64,000 nt of DNA, taken from Methylacidimicrobium sp. B4 (lineage in GTDB: Bacteria; Verrucomicrobiota; Verrucomicrobiia; Methylacidiphilales; Methylacidiphilaceae). The stretch is taken from the NCBI RefSeq assembly GCF_017310545.1, contig NZ_CP066203.1, positions 930,001 to 994,000 on the forward strand, in the 5' to 3' direction. Below the pieces are notes generated by a model, which worked only from the letters and a program-made list of their open reading frames with translations, was not told where the DNA came from and did no database searches. Numbering within the stretch: position 1 is the first letter of the stretch; each line of letters starts with the position of its first letter. The position numbers were made by a program, and so were the translations under genes. Of the stretch, positions 1,399 to 12,756 are shown piece by piece.

Positions 1399-1806
1399 TC
1401 AAGAGCCTGGCGGACCGAACGCATCGGGCAGATGTCGGAGGATCGGCTTTCCGGAACCCTGGGCGAGCACCTCGACGATGTCGAAGCGGTAGGTCACCTC
1501 GTCCCGTCCCAGCTCCTCCAGGTAGGCGTAGGCGGCCCGCACCAGGCGCGCCCGCTTCCCGGGGTCGACAGCCTCGCATGGCTCGCCATGGCTCGTCGAG
1601 CTGCGGGTCTTCACCTCGACGAAGACGAGCACGGACCCATCCCGGCAGACGAGGTCGATCTCCCCGCCCCCGATCCGCACGTTGCGCAGGAGGATCCGGT
1701 AGTGCTTGCGACGAAGGAACCGTGCGGCCTCGCGCTCCCCCCACGCTCCCAGGTTCCTCTTCTGCAGCAGGGGTCGTGGGAAGAAAGCCCAAGGGAGGCC
1801 GAGCAT
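1399..1806 (-). CDS. yraN: YraN/UPF0102 family endonuclease-like protein
   Basis: A 135-residue protein of the UPF0102 (YraN) family, which has a restriction-endonuclease-like fold and is usually near rnhB. The signature is visible: GxxGE near residues 20-24 (LGAWGEREAARFL), then GEIDLVCRD and VFVEVKTRSS, which supply the acidic and lysine residues of a PD-(D/E)XK-like site. I chose the ATG at 1806, two bases after the rnhB stop, because it matches the family's usual length. The frame stays open further upstream but overlaps rnhB there. The precise cellular role is not established. Confidence 0.85.
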   Translation of the reverse strand: MLGLPWAFFPRPLLQKRNLGAWGEREAARFLRRKHYRILLRNVRIGGGEIDLVCRDGSVLVFVEVKTRSSTSHGEPCEAVDPGKRARLVRAAYAYLEELGRDEVTYRFDIVEVLAQGSGKPILRHLPDAFGPPGS

Positions 1807-1808
1807 GT

Positions 1809-2495
1809 TCAGACCCCTTTGTCCCACGGAAGATCGGGCATCGCTTCCGCGGAGAGCCGACCGAGGAAGCTTCGGCGGTGTAAAGGGGTCGGGCCGTGAA
1901 TCCGTAGGGCATCCCAATGCTCTGCGGTCCCGTAGCCCTTGTGGCGGGCGAAGCCGAAGCGGGGATGCTCCCGGTCGATCTCGGTCATCCACTGGTCACG
2001 CCTGACCTTGGCCAGGATCGAAGCGGCAGCGATGCAGGCGCAGCGGCCATCTCCACCGATGATTGCGCGAACGGGCAGCTCGAGGGGGGGAGCCTCCCTA
2101 CCGTCGACCAGGACGACTCCGGGCCTTTCGGGCAGTGCCGCAACGGCCCGAGACATCGCGAGCATCGTCGCCCCCAGGACGTTCCAGCGATCGATCTCCT
2201 CGACGGAGGCAAAGCCGACTCCGTACGCCACACCCGGCAAGCCGACGATCCAGTGGCAGACCTCCGACCGGTGCCGCGGCTCGAGCCGCTTGGAATCGTC
2301 GAGCTTCGGGTGGAGGGGAATCCCCGGAGGCAAGATGACGGCTGCAGCGACAAGGGGCCCGGCGAGGCAGCCGCGGCCCACCTCGTCCACGCCCGCGGCG
2401 GGCGAGAGGCCTTGCTCGGCAAGCAGGAGCTCGAGCCGCCGGTCGACTCCCCGCCTCCGGGGATTCGATTGACCCGCAGGCTCCGGTTTCCGCAC
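1809..2495 (-). CDS. rnhB: Ribonuclease HII
   Basis: RNase HII cleaves the RNA strand of RNA-DNA hybrids and starts ribonucleotide excision repair. The 228-residue protein has the diagnostic GVDEVGRG motif (Asp and Glu ligands) near residue 37, LDDSKRL, and a C-terminal block AAASILAKVRRD with the last acidic ligand, followed by the family HKGYGT segment. About 20 basic or proline-rich residues precede the domain, so the start could lie further in. It follows rplS and precedes yraN on the same strand, a common bacterial order. A second RNase H (type HIII) is encoded at 25484-26515. Confidence 0.95.
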   Translation of the reverse strand: MRKPEPAGQSNPRRRGVDRRLELLLAEQGLSPAAGVDEVGRGCLAGPLVAAAVILPPGIPLHPKLDDSKRLEPRHRSEVCHWIVGLPGVAYGVGFASVEEIDRWNVLGATMLAMSRAVAALPERPGVVLVDGREAPPLELPVRAIIGGDGRCACIAAASILAKVRRDQWMTEIDREHPRFGFARHKGYGTAEHWDALRIHGPTPLHRRSFLGRLSAEAMPDLPWDKGV

Positions 2496-2587: not shown

Positions 2588-2926
2588 CTATTTTCGACCG
2601 AGGACGGCCTCCTTGCCCTTCCTGCCCCGCAGGTAATAGAGCTTGGCCCGCCGCACCTTGGAGCTCCGTTCCACCTCGATCTTCTCGATCCAGGGGGAGT
2701 GGAGGCGATAGATGCGCTCGATTCCCTCTCCATAACTGAGCCGCCGAACGGTGAACGCCGCATGGATTCCGTGTCCCTTGCGGGCGATCACGATGCCCTG
2801 AAAGACCTGAACCCGCTCCTTATCACCCTCGCGAATGCGTGAGTGGACCCGCACGCTGTCGCCGACCGCAAACCGGGGAAGCTCTTTCTTGAACTGCTCC
2901 TGCTCAATCCGCTCGATTACGTTCAT
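2588..2926 (-). CDS. rplS: 50S ribosomal protein L19
   Basis: L19 sits at the 30S-50S interface. The 112-residue product is of normal length and shows the family blocks FAVGDSVRVH, VFQGIVIARKG, TVRRLSYGEGIER and RRAKLYYLRGRKGK. A strong AGGAGAG site precedes the ATG at 2926. Its first 23 bases overlap the 3' end of trmD, so the two are likely translationally coupled. The order rpsP-trmD-rplS matches the classical ribosomal operon, although rimM, which usually sits between rpsP and trmD, is absent here. Confidence 0.97.
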   Translation of the reverse strand: MNVIERIEQEQFKKELPRFAVGDSVRVHSRIREGDKERVQVFQGIVIARKGHGIHAAFTVRRLSYGEGIERIYRLHSPWIEKIEVERSSKVRRAKLYYLRGRKGKEAVLGRK

Positions 2927-3620
2927 CGCTCTCTCCTTTTCCTCTCCGCTCCCACAAATCCGTTCTCACGCGCCGCGTCTTCTCTTCCGCCATGGAGCGG
3001 CGCCACCGCCCGATCGCTCCGTGATCTCCGGACAGAAGGATTTCGGGCACCCCCCACTCCCGGAAGACGGCCGGCCGTGTATATTGCGGACCCTCTAGAA
3101 GAGCATCTTCGAAGGATTCGTGCAACACCGATTCTGCATTTCCCAGAACGCCGGGAAGCAGACGGGCGACCGCGTCGATGATCGGCAGGACGGCTACGGC
3201 CCCGTTGGCGACGACGAAGTCTCCGATCGAAACCTCCTCGTCAACCCAATGGTCGATCACCCGCTGATCGACTCCTTCGTAGTGGCCGCAAACAAAGATC
3301 AGCCGAGGAGCGCGGGAAAACTCCCAGGCCATGGCCTGATCGAAGGTTCTTCCTCCCGGAGACAGGAGGCGGATGGGCGCCTTCTCCGCCAGGGCTTGGA
3401 CCGCCTCGATCGCTTCGACCAGGGGCTCGCATTTGAGCACCATCCCCGGTCCGCCCCCATAGGGCCGATCGTCGACGGTCCTGTGCCGGTCACGGGCGTA
3501 GTCCCGGAGCTGGTGCACGTGGAAATCGAGCCGCCCGCTCCCAATCGCCCTTCCCAGGATGCTCTCCCGCGCCGCCGCCTCCAAGAGCGCGGGGAAGAGG
3601 GTGATGACATCGATCCGCAC
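2904..3620 (-). CDS. trmD: tRNA (guanine-37-N1)-methyltransferase
   Basis: TrmD methylates G37 next to the anticodon with S-adenosylmethionine and prevents +1 frameshifting. The 238-residue protein carries the SPOUT-fold trefoil knot motifs: DDRPYGGGPGM, LLSPGGRTF, FVCGHYEGVDQR and the EEVSIGDFVVANGAVA segment with the catalytic region. It lies between rpsP and rplS on one strand. Its C-terminal tail is charged and overlaps rplS by 23 bases. No rimM gene lies between rpsP and trmD. Confidence 0.97.
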   Translation of the reverse strand: MRIDVITLFPALLEAAARESILGRAIGSGRLDFHVHQLRDYARDRHRTVDDRPYGGGPGMVLKCEPLVEAIEAVQALAEKAPIRLLSPGGRTFDQAMAWEFSRAPRLIFVCGHYEGVDQRVIDHWVDEEVSIGDFVVANGAVAVLPIIDAVARLLPGVLGNAESVLHESFEDALLEGPQYTRPAVFREWGVPEILLSGDHGAIGRWRRSMAEEKTRRVRTDLWERRGKGESDERNRAD

Positions 3621-3639
3621 GACTCCCCCGCGCGATGAA

Positions 3640-3918
3640 TCACGACGCCGCCGGGGAGGCTTCTTCCTTTTCCGCAGGCTCGCTCGGAGCGGTCTTCACG
3701 ATGCGCGCAACGGTCTCGCTCATCTGCGCTCCCTGCTTTCTCCAGAATTCGATCCGGTCGAGCTTCACCTGAACCCCGCCTTCCTTCACGACCGGATCGT
3801 AGGTTCCGACTGATTCCAGGAACTTGCCGTCCCGAGCCGCCCGCCGGTCGGCGACCACGATGCGAAAGAAGGGCCGGTTCTTGCGCCCCTCCCTCCGTAA
3901 ACGAACTACCACTGCCAT
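3640..3918 (-). CDS. rpsP: 30S ribosomal protein S16
   Basis: S16 is an early 30S assembly protein. The 92-residue product begins MAVVVRLRREGRKNRPFFRIVVADRR, which I cite only for the family blocks VRLRR and NRPFFRIVVAD, followed by GTYDP and the LDRIEFW region. The C-terminal 20 residues are rich in Ala, Pro and Glu and are outside the conserved fold. It lies 24 bases after ffh and 19 bases before trmD on the minus strand, so all three are probably cotranscribed. Confidence 0.96.
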   Translation of the reverse strand: MAVVVRLRREGRKNRPFFRIVVADRRAARDGKFLESVGTYDPVVKEGGVQVKLDRIEFWRKQGAQMSETVARIVKTAPSEPAEKEEASPAAS

Positions 3919-3942: not shown

Positions 3943-5271
3943 TCATCCAGACAGGGCTCCGGGAAAGCCCAGCTTCGGCCAGCCCCTTCCCGCTCCCTTG
4001 GAAATCTTCCGCATCATCTTCCGCATCGAGTCGAATTTCCGCAAGAGATCATTGACATCGGTGACCTGCGTTCCGCTCCCGCGGGCGATGCGCAACCGAC
4101 GACGTCCGTTGAGAATCCCCGGGCGGCGCCGCTCCTCGGGCGTCATGGAGAGGATGATCGCCTCGACCTGCTTGACCTTCTTCTCATCGACCTTGACCGC
4201 TTCCTTGCCAGGAAGCCCCGGAAGGAGCGCCAACAGGCTCTCGAGCGGTCCCATCTTCTTCATGAGCCGGAGCTGCGTGAGAAAATCCTGGAGGCTGAAT
4301 TCATTGCTCTTGAGCCGCTTGGCCATCTCCTCCATCGACTGGGTGTCGATTTCCGACTGAGCCCGATCGACGAGGGCCACGATGTCTCCCATGCCCAGGA
4401 GCCTTCCGACGAATCGCTCGGGGACGAAGGCCTGCAAGGCATCAGGCTTCTCTCCCACGCCCAGGAACTTGATCGGAATGCCCGTCACCTGCTGGATCGA
4501 GAGAGCCGCGCCGCCCCGGGCGTCGCCATCGGCCCTCGACAGGACCAGCCCGGTAAGGGGCACCTTGGCCGCAAAGGCTTCCGCCACCTTCACCGCCACC
4601 TGTCCGGTCGCCGCATCGACGACCAAGAGTGACTCTCCCGGCTCCCAGAGCCCGGCCACGCCCGCAAGCTCCTCGAGCAGCTCGGCGTCGACATCGAGGC
4701 GGCCCGCGGCGTCGAAAATCAAGACATCGACTCTTTCCCGCTCACCTCGTGCCCGTCCTTCCCGAACGACCGTTTCGAGCGGGGTCCCCTCCGGCCAGGA
4801 ATAGACCGGAACCTGGATCTGCTCACCGAGCCGCTGGAGCTGCTCGCGCGCAGCGGGACGGGTCAGGTCCCCAGCGACCAGCGCCACCTTCTGGTGCTGC
4901 TTCCGGAACCAGAGGGCCAGCTTTGCCGCCGTCGTCGTCTTCCCCGAGCCGTTGAGCCCGCAGAGGAGGAGGCGAATGGGCCGCTCGGGCCGGATCCCGC
5001 GCTCGCCCTCTCCCAGCAGGCGCACGAGCTCGTCGTGGAAGATCTTGACGAACTGATCTCCCGGTCGAATGCTGGCCAGCGCTTCCCGCCCGAGGGCGCT
5101 CTTCTGGATCTCCTCGCAGAGCCGCTTGGCCACCGGGTAGTGGACGTCGGCGGCGAGCAGGGCGAGGCGGATCTCGCGGAGCGCGTCGGCGACGTTCGCC
5201 TCGGAGAGCTTTCCGTATCCGCGAAGGTTGCGGAAGACCGATTCGAGCTTTTTCTGGAGGAGTTCGAGCAT
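3943..5271 (-). CDS. ffh: Signal recognition particle protein Ffh (SRP54)
   Basis: Ffh binds SRP RNA and hydrophobic signal sequences on the ribosome and docks with FtsY at the membrane. The 442-residue protein has an N-terminal helical domain, a G domain with P-loop GLNGSGKTTTAAK, DAAGR and the SRP-specific TKxDG position replaced by SRADGDARGGAAL, and a methionine-rich M domain with GSGTQVTDVNDLLRKFD. The usual TKLDG guanine-specificity motif reads SRADG here, a modest divergence. It follows pafA by 27 bases on the minus strand, linking the proteasome genes to the ribosomal operon. Confidence 0.96.
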   Translation of the reverse strand: MLELLQKKLESVFRNLRGYGKLSEANVADALREIRLALLAADVHYPVAKRLCEEIQKSALGREALASIRPGDQFVKIFHDELVRLLGEGERGIRPERPIRLLLCGLNGSGKTTTAAKLALWFRKQHQKVALVAGDLTRPAAREQLQRLGEQIQVPVYSWPEGTPLETVVREGRARGERERVDVLIFDAAGRLDVDAELLEELAGVAGLWEPGESLLVVDAATGQVAVKVAEAFAAKVPLTGLVLSRADGDARGGAALSIQQVTGIPIKFLGVGEKPDALQAFVPERFVGRLLGMGDIVALVDRAQSEIDTQSMEEMAKRLKSNEFSLQDFLTQLRLMKKMGPLESLLALLPGLPGKEAVKVDEKKVKQVEAIILSMTPEERRRPGILNGRRRLRIARGSGTQVTDVNDLLRKFDSMRKMMRKISKGAGRGWPKLGFPGALSG

Positions 5272-5298: not shown

Positions 5299-6708
5299 CT
5301 ATTTGGAGCGGAGCTCCAGGTCCTCGCACAGGCCCGGTAGCTCCGCCTTCGACGGTACGGCACTCACGAAGGGATCTTCCAAGGAGTAGTAGCCGCTGTT
5401 GCCCACCTGCACATAGTCCCAGTCGATCACATACGAGATCTTGCCTGCGGCCATTCGCCGCATGAGCTGGCTCCGTGCGTGGGCCCGGGTATTCCGGGGC
5501 GCGTCCCGCTCCGGATCATGGTCCCCCAGGCCAGGCAAGCCGAGGGCCTCGAGCGAAGGCTGGGGGATCAGAGCCGCCAAGCTCCGCTTTTCATTGAGGT
5601 TGTGGTATTCGAGATCGAGGCTCTCCATCCACGGATCGTCCCAACCTACCCCTTCCTGGGTGCGAAAGAGCTCGAGCAGGTGGCGCTTGGTGATCCAGTC
5701 AACCTTGCCCAGGAGAGCCTCGGTGTCCTCGCGCAAGCCGCGCAAGACCTCTTCCCAGGCAAGACAGGTCCAGACCGTGTCCCGATCCTCTTCCCGATCG
5801 AGCCGGCTGGCCGCCGTCAGGAAGTGCTCCAGAAGCTCCACAGCCGTCCATCTCCTTCCGTCGGAGAGCTCGATGAGCCAGGGGCCGTCGGGACAGTGGC
5901 TGATCTGATGCATCGCGCGCACCGGGTCGGCCAGGGCGAGGCGAGGCATCCGGTCCGCCTCCAAGAGGTCGAGCACGAGGGAGGTGCTGCCGACCTTGAG
6001 GGCCTGGCAGAACGGAAGCATGTTCGAGTCCCCAAGGAGGAGATGGAAGCGGCGAAAGCGGCAGGGATCCCCCAAGGGCTCGTCCCGGGCGTTGATCAGC
6101 GCTCGGTTGAACTGGACCCACTCGTAGATCTCGGTCTGGATGTAGTCGGCGCGCTGCATCACCTGAAACGGCAGGGCGCGCGTGCGGGCTCCCCGGTCGA
6201 CCCCCCTGGGCACCATCACCGTCCCGACCCGGCCGGCTCCGACCATCAGCCCTCGGACAGCCAGAAAGGCGAGCAGCGCGTCGACGTTTCCCTGGGAAAG
6301 CGGGGCGTCGCGCTGGAGAAGATAGTTTTCGTGGCAGCCGAAGGTCGCGCCCGTGTAGTGATCGATGTTGTTCTTGATGAACGAGGACTCCCCCGCGATG
6401 CCCAAGTCGTTCAGGGCCCGTTGCAGCAGCTTCTCGCCCGCCCGGTCGGAAGCGAGCAGATCCCCCAGGAAGCGACATTCGGCGGTGCAATATTCGATGT
6501 GCCCCATGTCGAGATAGAGCCGGCCACCGTTGAAGAGGAACCCGCCGTTGCCTGCGGGCTCGTCGTAATCCCGGTCGTGGACATCGATCAGGCCCACGCC
6601 CTCCCGGTAGAAGAGATGGTCGCGCACCCGCTCCGGCACGGGCGGACTCTCCATGGTCCGCTGCGAAAGGCAGCCATATTCCGTCTCCAGGCCCGCAATC
6701 CGCCGCAT
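5299..6708 (-). CDS. pafA: Pup/UBact--protein ligase PafA
   Basis: PafA uses ATP to join the C-terminal glutamate of the small modifier to substrate lysines. The 469-residue protein belongs to the carboxylate-amine ligase-like family shared with Dop. Visible are LETEYG at the N terminus, the Asp-bearing GGRLYLDMGHIEY (Asp67, expected catalytic base), NNIDHYTGATFGCHENYL, INARDEP and FHLLLGDSNM. It lacks the loop insertion seen in the Dop paralogue and ends with IDWDYVQV and LEDPF, as PafA does. The ATG has a good AGGAG site and starts three bases after the prcA stop. Minor family variations such as HIEY for HPEY are present. Confidence 0.92.
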   Translation of the reverse strand: MRRIAGLETEYGCLSQRTMESPPVPERVRDHLFYREGVGLIDVHDRDYDEPAGNGGFLFNGGRLYLDMGHIEYCTAECRFLGDLLASDRAGEKLLQRALNDLGIAGESSFIKNNIDHYTGATFGCHENYLLQRDAPLSQGNVDALLAFLAVRGLMVGAGRVGTVMVPRGVDRGARTRALPFQVMQRADYIQTEIYEWVQFNRALINARDEPLGDPCRFRRFHLLLGDSNMLPFCQALKVGSTSLVLDLLEADRMPRLALADPVRAMHQISHCPDGPWLIELSDGRRWTAVELLEHFLTAASRLDREEDRDTVWTCLAWEEVLRGLREDTEALLGKVDWITKRHLLELFRTQEGVGWDDPWMESLDLEYHNLNEKRSLAALIPQPSLEALGLPGLGDHDPERDAPRNTRAHARSQLMRRMAAGKISYVIDWDYVQVGNSGYYSLEDPFVSAVPSKAELPGLCEDLELRSK

Positions 6709-6711
6709 CCC

Positions 6712-7488
6712 CTACTCCTTTTCCTCCGGCCATCCCAGTTGCTGGGCCTCCGGGACCAGGAACGCGGGGCCGCCTTGGGCCGCGACCTCCCGGGAGAGCG
6801 CCCCGACTTCAAATCGGTCGCAGAGCCTGGGAGCGAGCCAATCCTTCGGAGGCGCGAACTGCGCCCACGGAACACGCTTCTCTCCCTCCGCCTGGGCGGA
6901 CCAGGCGAGCACGCGTAGCGCGTGCCCGGCAAGCTCCTTCCAGTCCTTAGCCGAAGGAGGCGGGGATTTCCGGCTCTCCTCCTGCCAGACCGACGAAAGA
7001 TCCTTGCGCGCACCGAAGAGGACTCCGCGGCGGAGCTGCTCGGGCTCGAGCCCCGCATAGCCGCCATCATATTCGAGGAGCCACGCTTGATCCGCGGAGG
7101 GCGAGCTTCCTAGCTCCACGAGAATGCCCCGGAAGAGCAATGGGGCGGAGAAGATCTGCTCAAAGGCGCTTTTCAGGGCTCCGGCCAGGCCATAGCTCAC
7201 GATCCGCCGCGCGCTCACGTCGGCCCGCGACCGGGAGAATCCCTCGACGTGCGCCGCCTCGATCGCAGTCTGCCGGATCTTTTCCACGTCGGCGGGATGG
7301 CCGACCGCCCCGAGGGCCAAGTGGTCGTAGACCTCGAAAACCTTTGGCGTGGACGCCTTGCCGGCGACCAGCAGGACGCCGGGCTCTCCGCTAACGGCAA
7401 CGACGGGCGCGGCACCGCGAAGTTGATCCTCGATGTACTCGCGCCGATTCTGGACCGCTTCCAACCAGCGATAAGGTTCCTCGATCAC
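6712..7488 (-). CDS. prcA: 20S proteasome alpha subunit PrcA
   Basis: PrcA forms the outer heptameric rings that gate the proteasome chamber and dock the ATPase. The 258-residue product has the bacterial alpha-subunit layout: an N-terminal gate helix (PYRWLEAVQNRREY), VVAVSGEPGVLLVAG, KVFEVYDHLALGAVGH and YDGGYAGLE. It has no propeptide or catalytic Thr. I chose the GTG at 7488 because AAGAGG lies six bases upstream. An in-frame TTG at 7530 has no ribosome site. It directly precedes pafA but is separated from prcB by 229 bases, the largest gap in the cluster. Confidence 0.88.
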   Translation of the reverse strand: MIEEPYRWLEAVQNRREYIEDQLRGAAPVVAVSGEPGVLLVAGKASTPKVFEVYDHLALGAVGHPADVEKIRQTAIEAAHVEGFSRSRADVSARRIVSYGLAGALKSAFEQIFSAPLLFRGILVELGSSPSADQAWLLEYDGGYAGLEPEQLRRGVLFGARKDLSSVWQEESRKSPPPSAKDWKELAGHALRVLAWSAQAEGEKRVPWAQFAPPKDWLAPRLCDRFEVGALSREVAAQGGPAFLVPEAQQLGWPEEKE

Positions 7489-7717
7489 GCTTAGCCTCTT
7501 GCTCGCCGCATCTCTCCCTTCCCCCCGCAAGGCGTCGGACCGCGCACCACCCCTGCCCGAAGGAAAACGGAAGTTGGCAGCCTACCACCTCCTGGACGGA
7601 GTTCAATGCAAATGCGCGCTCGATGCTTCCTGCCGGCACAATCGCCCTCCCGTGGGTTGGTCGATCCTCCCCCCATTCCCGGACCAGGCCCTCGGCCGGG
7701 CCGTCCGGCCAGGGTCC

Positions 7718-8515
7718 TCAGGCCTCCGCCGGGAGGAGACGGCCCAGCTGCTCCTCCGCGATCGACCGAACGCCGGCCTTCCGGATCAATTTTATCTGCG
7801 GGTAGATCCGCGTGCGCCGGTCGATGCCCCCCGTGGCGGTGTCGGATTCCGCCGCAACGTCCAAGAGCTGGAGGGCCAGGAGGATTGCCTCCTCCTCCGT
7901 GCGCTCGGCCGGAGGCGAACCGCTCCACCGGTTGAGGTATTGGAGGACGCTGCGGGCCGCCGGAGATCCGGAGCCCGAGACGGCGAAGTCGACCGCTTCG
8001 AATTGCGCGCCCAGGGCGTCGTAAAAGAAGATCTTCGGACCCCCCTTGCCCAGGGGATCGACCAGGGCGAGGACGGGAACCACGACCCCGACCCCTTGCA
8101 GGGTCATCGCAAGGTTCTCCTTGAGCAGCTTCCCGACCATCCTCACCTTGGCATCGAGCGACAAGGGCTGGAGCTGGCTCCGGCGGTAGTACTCGAAGGA
8201 GTGCTGGAGGACGCGGGCAATCTCATAGGCGGTCGCCGGAGCCCCCGCGATCGCCATGACCGTCGAACGGTCGATCTCGATTACCTTGTCCGCTCGATCA
8301 TGAATGACCGTGTGCCCCATCGTGGCTCGCCGATCTCCCGCGACGATGACCCCGTCCCGATAATGAAAGCTGAGCACGGTCGTCGACTCCGGCATCGGGA
8401 GCGCAGCACCCCCCGCCACCACCCCCTTCCCTTCGGGGAAAAGGAGATTCCTCGACCGGAGCACGGCAAAGAAATCGCCCGTCTGCGCCCCGGCTGAGAC
8501 ACCGATGGTCTCCAC
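7718..8515 (-). CDS. prcB: 20S proteasome beta subunit PrcB, threonine protease
   Basis: PrcB forms the inner rings and cleaves peptide bonds with its N-terminal threonine. The 265-residue precursor has a propeptide of about 44 residues ending in PMPES. The mature chain would begin TTVLSF, so Thr45 is Thr1. Counting from it, Asp17 (AGDRR) and Lys33 (DRADKV) fall exactly at the expected catalytic positions. SGSGSPAA and the downstream conserved core also fit. The start is a GTG five bases after the pup stop codon. The product is predicted to be active, as no key residue is missing. Confidence 0.95.
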   Translation of the reverse strand: METIGVSAGAQTGDFFAVLRSRNLLFPEGKGVVAGGAALPMPESTTVLSFHYRDGVIVAGDRRATMGHTVIHDRADKVIEIDRSTVMAIAGAPATAYEIARVLQHSFEYYRRSQLQPLSLDAKVRMVGKLLKENLAMTLQGVGVVVPVLALVDPLGKGGPKIFFYDALGAQFEAVDFAVSGSGSPAARSVLQYLNRWSGSPPAERTEEEAILLALQLLDVAAESDTATGGIDRRTRIYPQIKLIRKAGVRSIAEEQLGRLLPAEA

Positions 8516-8519
8516 GGTG

Positions 8520-8696
8520 CTATTCCCCAGTCCGCTGCCGATAGCGCTTCGCCTGATCGGGGTCGACCTTGCGCATCCGCTTGAGGATCTCTTCGGTGTT
8601 CGGCCGATCGACTCTCGGCGCTCTCGGGCCCGGTCCCTCTCCTCCCGGACCCGGGCCGGGACGGACCGGATGTGTCTTTTGCACTTGTTCTGGCAT
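8520..8696 (-). CDS. pup: Ubiquitin-like protein modifier, Pup/UBact type
   Basis: A 58-residue protein joined by its C terminus to substrate lysines to send them to the proteasome. It has a Pro/Gly-rich N-terminal half (VRPGPGPGGEGPGP), a helical segment NTEEILKRMRKVDPD, and ends RYRQRTGE. As in the UBact modifiers of non-actinobacterial phyla, the last residue is already Glu, so no Gln deamidation is needed. The position between dop and prcB is that of pup in mycobacteria. Two in-frame ATGs exist, at 8702 and 8696. AGGAGGG ends 2 bases before the first and 8 before the second, so I chose 8696. Confidence 0.9.
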   Translation of the reverse strand: MPEQVQKTHPVRPGPGPGGEGPGPRAPRVDRPNTEEILKRMRKVDPDQAKRYRQRTGE

Positions 8697-8704
8697 CAGC
8701 ATAG

Positions 8705-8711
8705 CCCTCCT
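8705..8711 (-). promoter_or_regulatory. Ribosome binding site deciding the pup start
   Basis: AGGAGGG on the minus strand lies eight bases before the ATG at 8696 but only two before the ATG at 8702. The perfect Shine-Dalgarno match suggests strong translation of the modifier compared with its neighbours, several of which start at GTG with weaker sites. Confidence 0.65.
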
Positions 8712-8725
8712 GGGTTTAGTGAAAT

Positions 8726-10276
8726 CTAGCCGCCGATCGGCTCGAGCTTCAACTCCTCGATCATATCGGAGACGAGCTGGGCGCGGTCGATCACCTCGCA
8801 GTAGCGCTCCAGGTCGACTCCCGGAAAGGCCGAAGAAAGCTCGACCCGGTAGGTCTGCCCCTTCCAGCGGAAAGCGATGTAGTCCCATTGGACGTTGACC
8901 AGATCCCGGGCGAACTTTTGAATGCACTTGCCCCGGACGTAGGCGCGGGAGGCGTTGGGCGGCTGCTGGATCGCCCGGTAGATATCCTCTTCCCGGGAAA
9001 TCCGGCTGATCTCGCCCCCCGATTCGAGGGCGTAATAGAGACCCCGGTCCCGATCCATCAGGTGATATTCGAGGTCGACGCTCTGGAGCCAGGGGTCGTT
9101 CCAGGAAAGGTTCTGCTCCTCGCGGAAGGTCTCCAGCAAGGATCGCTTGGCGACCCAATCGAGCCGATCGCGCAAGGCATTGGGACCCTTTTGCAGCAGC
9201 TCCACCGTCTCTTTCCAGCTCTTCCAGACCGCCCGCTTCTCGGGGTGGTCGAGATCGACGTAGCGGCCGACCCAATCGGCGTAGTCGTTCTGCAGCTCGG
9301 TGGCGGTGGTCGCCCCCGAATGGGCGAGATCCACCTCCCAGCGATTGGTCTGGTCCCGAGAGATGCTCCGATGGGCGTAGAGCGGATCGGCCAGGAAGAA
9401 GCGGCGCGGCACGCGGTCGTACTGGAGGGCCTCCAGCACCAGGGCCGTGGTACCGACCTTGAGCCAGGTCGCATACTCCGAAAGGTTGGAGTCACCCACG
9501 ATGACGTGGAAGCGCCGGTAGAGCTTGGGGTTGGCGTGGGGCTCATCCCGCGTGTTGATCAGCGGCCGCCGGTTCATGGTGTCGATGCCCACGAGCTCGG
9601 TGAAAAAGTCGGCGCGCTGGGAAATTTGAAAGCCACCGACCATTCCCTGGTCTTCCTTCTCCCAGCCGAGCTTTCCGGCCCCCCCGAAGATCTGGCGGGT
9701 GACCAGGAAGGCCATCATCCCCTCGACGATCCGATCCCAGGGGATCATCCGCGGGATCAGGTAGTTTTCGTGGCAGCCGTAACTGTGCCCGGCGAAATCG
9801 CTGTTGTTCTTGTAGAGGCAGACCGTGTGATTCCGCTTCCGGCTCGCCGCCCGGGCACACTCCTCGAGGATCCGTTCCCCCGCCTTGTCCTGCGCCACCA
9901 GCTCCAGGAGGGTGGAGCATTCCGGGGTCGAATATTCGGGATGGGTGTGGTCGTTGTAGAAGCGGGCTCCGTTGCGCAGGACGAAGTCGCTCTTGATCTC
10001 CTCGAAGCTGTAGGGCCGCTGGCGGTCCTGGGAGAAAAAGTTCGCCTCGTCCCCGTCCTGGCGCAGCTCCTTCGCCCGGAAGCCGCGGGCGTCACGGTGG
10101 GGATCCTCCCGCGTGTAATCCCAGAGGTTGGGGCTGCCGAGCTGAGCGGCGGCCCGCACCAGATGGATCGACTCCTCGACGACATCGATCTCCGCATTTT
10201 CCCGAACCGCAATCCCGAATTCGGTCTCCAATCCAAAATAGATCGGCCACGCTGGTATGGGTCTTTGCTTGTCCAT
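8726..10276 (-). CDS. dop: Depupylase/deamidase Dop
   Basis: Dop removes the modifier from tagged proteins; in species whose modifier ends in Gln it also deamidates it. The 516-residue paralogue of PafA has GLETEFG, an Asp-bearing NGARFYNDHTHPEYS (Asp109), NNSDFAGHSYGCHENYL, NTRDEPHA and FHVIVGDSNLSEY. A charged insertion (about residues 65-97, AKELRQDGDEANFF) before the Asp motif matches the Dop loop and separates it from PafA. I chose the ATG at 10276, preceded by GGAGGG 12 bases away. A TTG at 10318 would overlap mpa and add 14 residues. Since the local modifier already ends in Glu, depupylation is its likely role. Confidence 0.92.
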   Translation of the reverse strand: MDKQRPIPAWPIYFGLETEFGIAVRENAEIDVVEESIHLVRAAAQLGSPNLWDYTREDPHRDARGFRAKELRQDGDEANFFSQDRQRPYSFEEIKSDFVLRNGARFYNDHTHPEYSTPECSTLLELVAQDKAGERILEECARAASRKRNHTVCLYKNNSDFAGHSYGCHENYLIPRMIPWDRIVEGMMAFLVTRQIFGGAGKLGWEKEDQGMVGGFQISQRADFFTELVGIDTMNRRPLINTRDEPHANPKLYRRFHVIVGDSNLSEYATWLKVGTTALVLEALQYDRVPRRFFLADPLYAHRSISRDQTNRWEVDLAHSGATTATELQNDYADWVGRYVDLDHPEKRAVWKSWKETVELLQKGPNALRDRLDWVAKRSLLETFREEQNLSWNDPWLQSVDLEYHLMDRDRGLYYALESGGEISRISREEDIYRAIQQPPNASRAYVRGKCIQKFARDLVNVQWDYIAFRWKGQTYRVELSSAFPGVDLERYCEVIDRAQLVSDMIEELKLEPIGG

Positions 10277-10314
10277 GGCGCCGCGCTTCCCTCCGGTCAC
10301 TGGTTCCCGAATGC

Positions 10315-12003
10315 TCAAACGACCTGACGCATCGTCCCCCCCTCCCGCCGCACCACCGGAGCCAGCCGAACTACGTTCTGCGGATCGCAGTCGACGAGCT
10401 TCAGCCAGTCTTCCGTGATATCCGACGGCGGGAAGATGTCATTCTCAAGATACTCGATATCGAGCGCTGTCAACAGGTCCTCCAGCCGCAAGCCGTGATC
10501 CGACGGATCGGAGATCGCCCGCTTGATCGCCAGCTCCTTGGCCCGCTCGACGATCGAGGCGATGATGGCCCCGCTGATCAGGTCGCCGCGATAGAGGTAT
10601 TCCTTTCTCCCGCTCCGGTAGGTGATCTCCAGGAAGCGGTTCTCTTCGGCACGGGCGAACTGGGCGTCCAGCACCCCTTCGACGAGCAAGTCGATCGCCT
10701 TTTGCCGATCCTCGCCCGCCTGCTTCAAGAGCTCCGGGGCATAGGGGAGATCGGCGTGAAGGTAGATTCGATAGATTTCGCCCGATCCCGCGCGATCCGG
10801 CCGGTTGACCTTGATCTTTCGATCGATGCGGCCCGGTCGAAGGATGGCCGGGTCGATCAGATCTGCGCGGTTGGAGGCCAGGATGATCACTACCTCGCGC
10901 ATCGACTCGATCCCGTCCATCTCGGCACAGAACATGGGGACGAGCGTATTGAGGATGCTGTTGAAGCGTCCTGCGCGCCGGGTACCCAGGATCGATTCGG
11001 CCTCGTCGATGAAGATGAAGGGGAGAAAGCCCTCGCGGGCCAGCTCCCGAGCCTGCTCGAAGAGGTCACGCACCTGCCGCTCCGACTCGCCGACCCACAT
11101 GTTGAGAATCTCCGGCCCCTTGACGTGGAGGAAGAACTCCTTGCGCTCCTCTCCGGTCCGTTCCCGAAGCTGGCGCGTCAGGTTGTACGCCGTCGCCTTC
11201 CCCAAGAGGGTCTTCCCGCATCCCGGCGGCCCGTGGAGCAAGAATCCCTTCGGGACGTGGTGGTGATACTTGGCGAAGAGGTCCGCATGGAGGAAAGGCA
11301 GCTCCACGGCATCCCGAACGGCTCCCACCGCCTCCTTCTGGCCCCCGATCTTCTCCCACGGAAGCTCCGGGACCTGGTCGAGCAGACGGTGCTTGGTCCT
11401 CGAGGTCGCCACGACCTCGAGTGCCACCCGGGAGAAGCCGTCGATCCGGATTTCGAGCCCGGCCTTGATCCGCTCCTTGGCCAGCGGGGTCGAACGAATC
11501 ACCACGAAGCTCCCGCCCACGCCTTCGTGGCCCACGCGCAGCCGGTTGTCCGGTAGCACGTCGAGAACCTTCACCACGGGGCCGGAAAAGTCGAAGCCGA
11601 GATCGCCAACGACCGCAAACGCCTCGTTGAGCAGCACCCGCGTTCCCACCAAGAGCGTCTCGTGAGCCAGCCGCGGATCGATCAGGCAGTAGAATTCGGT
11701 GCCACCCTGGACCACCAGCGCGATGTCTTTCTTGGGGAGGCCAAGGAGGGTGCCCACGCGGTTCGCCGGGGCGGAGAGCTTCTCGACCGCCTCGTTGAGC
11801 TTTTCCAGGGCCTGGTGGGCCTGCTCGCTCGTCTCCTCGAGCTCGGCGACCCGGCGCCGCAGGTAGAAGAACGCCTCCCGCGAAACCGCGTCGAAGGAGA
11901 GTGATTGGCCGATCAGGTCGACGACCTGCAGAGCGGAGGCCGACTCCAAGTTTTCGAAAGACAAAGGCATGTCTGCTCCGAATCCCTTTTCTTTTCTCGC
12001 CAT
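10315..12003 (-). CDS. mpa: Proteasome-activating AAA ATPase Mpa/ARC
   Basis: This hexameric ATPase recognises modified proteins, unfolds them and threads them into the 20S core. The roughly 562-residue protein has an N-terminal coiled coil (residues 45-85) that binds the modifier, two OB-like regions, and one AAA module with Walker A GPPGCGKT, Walker B FIFIDEAES and arginine finger ILRPGRIDRK. It ends MRQVV and so lacks the penultimate Tyr of the Mpa GQYL docking tail. I chose the ATG at 12003. An ATG at 11970 has a nearer GGAG, and an upstream start at 12039 is possible. It is 54 bases from pyrF and heads the proteasome genes. Confidence 0.93.
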   Translation of the reverse strand: MARKEKGFGADMPLSFENLESASALQVVDLIGQSLSFDAVSREAFFYLRRRVAELEETSEQAHQALEKLNEAVEKLSAPANRVGTLLGLPKKDIALVVQGGTEFYCLIDPRLAHETLLVGTRVLLNEAFAVVGDLGFDFSGPVVKVLDVLPDNRLRVGHEGVGGSFVVIRSTPLAKERIKAGLEIRIDGFSRVALEVVATSRTKHRLLDQVPELPWEKIGGQKEAVGAVRDAVELPFLHADLFAKYHHHVPKGFLLHGPPGCGKTLLGKATAYNLTRQLRERTGEERKEFFLHVKGPEILNMWVGESERQVRDLFEQARELAREGFLPFIFIDEAESILGTRRAGRFNSILNTLVPMFCAEMDGIESMREVVIILASNRADLIDPAILRPGRIDRKIKVNRPDRAGSGEIYRIYLHADLPYAPELLKQAGEDRQKAIDLLVEGVLDAQFARAEENRFLEITYRSGRKEYLYRGDLISGAIIASIVERAKELAIKRAISDPSDHGLRLEDLLTALDIEYLENDIFPPSDITEDWLKLVDCDPQNVVRLAPVVRREGGTMRQVV

Positions 12004-12057
12004 GCTTTCAACAATAGGCGCATGCGCTTCCCCCCGCAAATCGCCTCCTAGGCGAGG

Positions 12058-12756
12058 TCATTTCCCCACTTGAAGCAAGTTCCGCACCAACTTGACCGGG
12101 TCCGCCGATTCGAGCACGGGCCGGCCGACGACAATGTGGGTAGCTCCCAGGGCAAACGCCTCACGGGGGGAGACGGTGCGGCGCTGATCATCTCCTTGCC
12201 GCTCCGCGAGCCGGATCCCCGGGGTCACGATCACTTCCGGCCGGATGCCGGCCTCCCGCAGGGAAGTGAGCTCGCGGGCCGAACAGACGATGCCGGGAAC
12301 GCCACATTCTCCGGCGAGCGCCGCCAAGGAGCAGACCCGTCCGGGGATGCCGCCGCTCAGGCCGACCTCGGAAAGTTCCTCCTCCTCGAGGCTCGTCAGC
12401 ACGGTCACCGCGAGGATCTGGGTCCCGCTGCCCACCGCGGCCTCGGCGGCGGCCGTCAGCATTCGCCTTCCCCCGAGGGCATGAACGGTCAGGAAGCCCA
12501 CTTCCATCCGCACGCAAGCTTCGACGGCCCGGCCGACCGTAGCCGGGATGTCGTGAAACTTGAGATCGAGGAAGACTCGCGCCCCCAGCGCCCGGAGCTC
12601 CTCGACGACATGCGGCCCGCCGCGCAAGAAGAGTTGACTTCCCACCTTGAACCAACTGACATACTCGCTCAGTCGGCGCGCGAGGGAGAGCGCCGTCTTC
12701 ACCTCGAAGAGATCCAAGGCCACGATGAGCCCATCCACTAAGGGCAGGGAGGACAC
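12058..12756 (-). CDS. pyrF: Orotidine 5'-phosphate decarboxylase
   Basis: PyrF converts OMP to UMP, the last step of pyrimidine synthesis. The 232-residue TIM-barrel protein shows LIVALDL, WFKVGSQLF, the catalytic DLKFHDIPATV (Asp-Lys-x-x-Asp), VTVLTS, IVTPGIR and HIVVGRPV. The frame is open far upstream, but that part lies antisense to ispE, so I chose the GTG at 12756, which gives normal length. Its 5' end overlaps the divergent ispE 5' end by about 32 bases. It is the first gene of the minus-strand block that continues into mpa. Confidence 0.94.
   Translation of the reverse strand: MSSLPLVDGLIVALDLFEVKTALSLARRLSEYVSWFKVGSQLFLRGGPHVVEELRALGARVFLDLKFHDIPATVGRAVEACVRMEVGFLTVHALGGRRMLTAAAEAAVGSGTQILAVTVLTSLEEEELSEVGLSGGIPGRVCSLAALAGECGVPGIVCSARELTSLREAGIRPEVIVTPGIRLAERQGDDQRRTVSPREAFALGATHIVVGRPVLESADPVKLVRNLLQVGK

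Follow-up and report, generated by a model that had tools for sequence, protein, structure and literature searches.

The locus raises the question whether a bacterial proteasome cluster that runs on into the signal recognition particle (SRP) gene ffh and into ribosomal protein genes forms one operon with them, tying degradation to targeting and ribosome supply, as a sequence-only reading had proposed. The explanation favoured here, at a probability of roughly 0.7, is that a standard UBact-proteasome cluster was joined once, by its 3' end, to the ffh operon in the ancestor of Methylacidiphilaceae, and that the result would be expressed as two overlapping units.

Gene content of the cluster

The window is the whole stretch analysed, 64,000 nt at positions 930001-994000 of a single-contig genome of 2.37 Mb. 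Profile matches and coordinates confirm that mpa, dop, a modifier gene, prcB, prcA and pafA occupy the minus strand here and continue into ffh, rpsP, trmD, rplS, rnhB and yraN, in that order of transcription and with pyrF ahead of mpa (Table 1). The UBact tag, both 20S subunits and an Mpa-type ATPase are thus encoded together.

Table 1. Genes and promoter-like sites of the cluster in order of transcription (positions in the window)
Feature	Position	Strand	Assignment and support
pyrF	12058..12741	-	NF001273, 244 bits; start approximate; codirectional neighbour upstream of mpa
P1	12011..12039	-	Promoter-like; TTGCGG-N17-TATTGT, 7 nt ahead of mpa ATG, leaderless geometry
mpa	10315..12003	-	UBact-type proteasomal AAA ATPase; TIGR03689, 448.6 bits; OB and AAA domains; C-terminus RQVV
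dop	8726..10276	-	PF03136; TIGR03688 446 vs TIGR03686 365 bits, Dop score above PafA score
dop, alternative start	10318	-	TTG
UBact	8520..8702	-	60 aa, C-terminal RQRTGE; NF033388 85.6 bits, PF20513 81.4 bits
prcB	7718..8515	-	20S beta subunit; TIGR03690 159 bits, PF00227 94 bits
P2	7579..7606	-	Promoter-like; TTGAAC-N16-TAGGCT, extended -10 TGG, 90 nt ahead of prcA
prcA	6712..7488	-	20S alpha subunit; GTG start; TIGR03691, 1.7e-14
pafA	5299..6708	-	Candidate UBact ligase; PF03136 367 bits; PafA 267 vs Dop 256 bits
ffh	3943..5271	-	SRP54 GTPase; TIGR00959, 511.7 bits, above cut-off
rpsP	3640..3918	-	S16; TIGR00002
trmD	2904..3620	-	PF01746
rplS	2588..2926	-	L19; sequence and position; ortholog matches at every family locus
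rnhB	1809..2495	-	Sequence and position; ortholog matches
yraN	1399..1809	-	NF009154; start approximate

The modifier is UBact and not Pup, as the protein is matched by UBact models only (Pfam, NCBIfam; cut-offs 35 bits for NF033388 and 27.8 bits for PF20513). Exactly two proteins in the genome match PF03136, the products of dop and pafA (523 and 367 bits), and PafA is 89-90% identical to that of Methylacidimicrobium tartarophylax and close kin, which places this acidophilic methanotroph in Methylacidimicrobium (Verrucomicrobiota). By profile comparison PrcA is a divergent 20S alpha subunit: the Pfam Proteasome model gives no match to it, and the PrcA family profile finds actinobacterial PrcA proteins of solved structure (PDB) at 1.8e-18. 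PrcB has its predicted Thr1 at PES/TTV, with Asp17 and Lys33 present as counted from the predicted cleavage site. The PafA, Dop, Mpa (pup_AAA), PrcA and PrcB proteins all score below the corresponding NCBI equivalog cut-offs.

Start codons were chosen by comparison with relatives (mpa ATG at 12003; prcA GTG). The comparison rules out two other candidates, a TTG at 7530 for prcA and a TTG at 12039 for mpa; the latter is the -35 of P1 and is followed by in-frame stops in relatives. The pyrF and ispE genes are divergent, with starts so close (12647-12741) that any pyrF promoter must sit within the ispE coding region.

The gaps had been described as mostly short. That holds overall, with prcB-prcA as the clear exception: from mpa onward every gap is at most 38 bp (mpa-dop 38, dop-UBact 23, UBact-prcB 4, prcA-pafA 3, pafA-ffh 27, ffh-rpsP 24, rpsP-trmD 19, trmD-rplS -23) except prcB-prcA (229 bp) and rplS-rnhB (92 bp). 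Across Methylacidiphilaceae the prcB-prcA gap spans 163-339 bp, against no more than about 27 bp in most of the measured outgroup loci. This expanded gap (7489-7717 here) varies in length and shows scant conservation apart from P2.

Distribution and origin of the pafA-ffh junction

The mpa-dop-UBact-prcB-prcA-pafA order is found in many of the 80 named loci retrieved by PafA across the genome collection, where the flank suffices, and is shared by Gemmatimonadota, Latescibacterota, Nitrospirota and Verrucomicrobiota. The six-gene block, pafA included, is ordinary among UBact bacteria of several phyla. The position of pafA in the cluster had been contrasted with mycobacteria, and in Mycobacterium pafA does sit with pafBC (PMC5656591), but the contrast is not distinctive, because UBact clusters usually include pafA. 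In two Verrucomicrobiota families (f6 and f14) the block is split into mpa-dop, UBact-prcB-prcA and pafA. The Pup-ligase family was present in 10 of 289 genomes in the phylum sample. Five public MAG records (L125, L092, L095, L096 and L100) are titled Klebsiella pneumoniae or Akkermansia muciniphila; their PafA groups with Verrucomicrobiota (Pedosphaera-like) rows, so the titles look misassigned.

A Pup-like tag with proteasome and accessory genes in one neighbourhood was described for Methylacidiphilum in 2008 (Iyer et al., PMC2588565; Methylacidiphilum infernorum genome, PMC2474590). Main-text passages of these two papers mention neither the junction with ffh and the ribosomal genes nor promoters. 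RNA-seq tables have been published for Methylacidiphilum fumariolicum SolV (PMC3404531). The literature search found no paper connecting pafA to ffh in this sense.

The unusual part of the locus is the pafA-ffh junction, not the proteasome block. All 13 Methylacidiphilaceae genomes have pafA with ffh next to it (two of the 13 contigs begin inside the block), and the junction does not appear at the other testable pafA loci to which the gene order was compared. Of the named loci, 65 extend at least 1.4 kb beyond pafA; ffh is next in only three of them, all Methylacidiphilaceae. Mapped on a PafA tree of 87 rows, the junction takes one change (support 100/97), and shuffles average 7.8 changes. Its confinement to the family, together with this single change, points to one origin, at or before the ancestor of Methylacidiphilaceae. 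In eight outgroup genomes the ffh operon is located elsewhere, with other unrelated genes upstream; one of the eight belongs to the same taxonomic order as Methylacidiphilaceae and has no Pup ligase.

The pafA-ffh gap is -7 to 27 bp in 12 of the 13 family genomes and 114 bp in the remaining one; in five Methylacidiphilum genomes it is -7 to 13 bp, the overlap being that of G302. The ffh-rpsP gap is 22-30 bp in Methylacidimicrobium and G008, versus 106-118 bp in Methylacidiphilum. The link of the block to ffh is therefore firm, and its connection with the ribosomal genes differs between lineages.

Between Methylacidimicrobium and two Methylacidiphilum genomes, gene order is also kept across a region of ~35 kb that surrounds the cluster (~916-951 kb in G000, the genome of the window) and has genes on both strands. 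Adjacency of pafA and ffh could thus last even if co-expression is not under selection; the junction itself may be neutral, a rearrangement retained by general synteny. Conserved adjacency was dropped as proof of co-regulation, since the flanking ~35 kb is equally syntenic. The order from which a coupling of degradation, targeting and ribosome supply had been proposed stands in every family genome, but with ~35 kb on both strands equally conserved it does not in itself demonstrate selected coupling.

The block and the ffh operon might then simply adjoin and be transcribed separately, with ffh read from a promoter within the pafA end. The both-strand synteny would allow this, and in Methylacidiphilum an AT-rich sequence resembling TACAAT/TATAAT stands in the pafA end, 17-18 nt upstream of ffh. 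A comparable site was not noticed in the pafA end of Methylacidimicrobium, however, and in 12 of 13 genomes pafA and ffh either overlap or are 7-27 bp apart, with scant room for a terminator between them, which makes separate transcription unlikely.

Promoter-like sites and proposed transcription units

P1 precedes mpa, where the 36 nt upstream of the ATG (12003) have the layout TTGCGG-N17-TATTGT-N7-ATG. The layout is kept in all 11 family genomes having the region, from three genera of very different base composition, with a spacer of 17, or 16 in G008. In several relatives an in-frame stop separates the hexamers from the ATG, so the stretch is not coding. Scored at the observed distance from the ATG, P1 gives shuffle P values of 0.008-0.022 in each of four lineages, which the tests take as independent and which are not fully so. 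Exact matches to the pattern number 7 in this genome versus 1 in the reversed control, and 8 versus 2 in G302. Such geometry would set the transcription start at the mpa start codon, giving a leaderless mRNA.

P2 lies in the prcB-prcA gap. It is present in all six Methylacidimicrobium genomes checked as TTGCATTGAAC-N13-TGGTAGGCT, with small variation, and the rest of the gap has diverged. In these six genomes the spacer is always 16 bp, and P2 lies 90 nt from the prcA GTG, or 93 nt in one of them. Its run of invariant columns beats all column permutations (0/10000), and at 0 mismatches the pattern has a single site in the whole genome. Neither Methylacidiphilum nor G008, whose prcB-prcA gap is long too (163-299 bp), has a recognisable copy of the motif; TTGA-N18-TATT(T/C)T is present in the gap of just two Methylacidiphilum genomes.

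P1 and P2 are sequence footprints of putative promoters, whose activity we infer. Generic promoter scans gave no more matches than in shuffles. Folds after prcB, ffh, prcA and rplS showed no consistent signal of intrinsic terminators, and terminator scans gave fewer matches than shuffles. The ffh end of G302 has a hairpin followed by a T run, resembling a terminator (L203:5341-5362), which is suggestive but does not exceed chance in the scan. The gaps of the cluster thus have no terminator signal beyond chance, and they do have promoter-like footprints, before mpa and before prcA.

In the favoured reading, the 3' end of the UBact block would have been fused, once, to the ffh-rpsP-trmD-rplS operon in the ancestor of Methylacidiphilaceae. 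P1 would then produce a leaderless mpa mRNA covering mpa-dop-UBact-prcB, with some read-through beyond, and P2 would produce prcA-pafA-ffh, supplemented by read-through from upstream. In Methylacidimicrobium the P2 transcript probably reaches rpsP-trmD-rplS. Co-transcription of prcA, pafA and ffh is possible, and this much of the single operon first proposed may stand, with gaps of 3 and 27 bp here and -7 to 13 bp for pafA-ffh in Methylacidiphilum; the footprints before mpa and in the prcB-prcA gap, and the Methylacidiphilum ffh-rpsP gap of 106-118 bp, argue against the remainder. One long operon from mpa or pyrF to rplS or yraN, selected so that degradation, targeting and ribosome supply co-vary, would fit genes that share one strand, mostly short gaps, an order that is the same in every family genome and no significant terminator signal between genes, but it is very improbable in view of the conserved promoter-like sites ahead of mpa and prcA (P2 speaking against the absence of an internal promoter), the family's long prcB-prcA gap beside that of most outgroup loci measured, the wide Methylacidiphilum ffh-rpsP gap and the equal conservation of the flanking ~35 kb.

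Comparison with known systems and consequences for the family

The enzymes and 20S subunits are homologous to those of the actinobacterial Pup-proteasome (Mycobacterium). By this homology, PafA would attach the C-terminal Glu of UBact to lysines and Dop would take UBact off, and Mpa would unfold UBact-tagged proteins, which PrcA/PrcB would degrade. The actinobacterial system has a Pup tag where this one has UBact, and its Mpa ends in GQYL, whereas the Mpa here ends in RQVV. UBact-type Mpa proteins have V or I as the C-terminal residue in 49 of 49 cases, including this one (10315-10326), and the last two residues are both from V/I in 44 of the 49. The V/I end may be the motif by which Mpa docks to the 20S core in UBact systems.

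The UBact clusters of Gemmatimonadota, Latescibacterota, Nitrospirota and other Verrucomicrobiota have the identical order with pafA, but lack ffh after it. Downstream, the genes follow the order of the bacterial ffh-rpsP-(KH/rimM)-trmD-rplS operon, except that there is no KH gene between rpsP and trmD. Outgroup loci L140 and L141 have a KH-domain gene at this place, which is absent here (3620-3640). RimM has no match in this genome and a match in 10 of 14 control genomes.

The locus shows a known system in a variant arrangement specific to one lineage. It is a long shot that in Methylacidiphilaceae a P2 mRNA spanning prcA, pafA and ffh holds proteasome core and UBact ligase in a fixed ratio to SRP, so that targeting and tagged degradation would be adjusted together, for example under acid stress. 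Almost no experimental work on UBact systems was found in the open literature searched. This family offers cultured organisms in which a UBact system with base-resolved candidate promoters adjoins an essential SRP gene, and in which its expression is open to testing and manipulation. Should prcA-pafA and ffh prove to be on one mRNA, knockouts of pafA or prcA in these organisms would be easy to misread because of polar effects.
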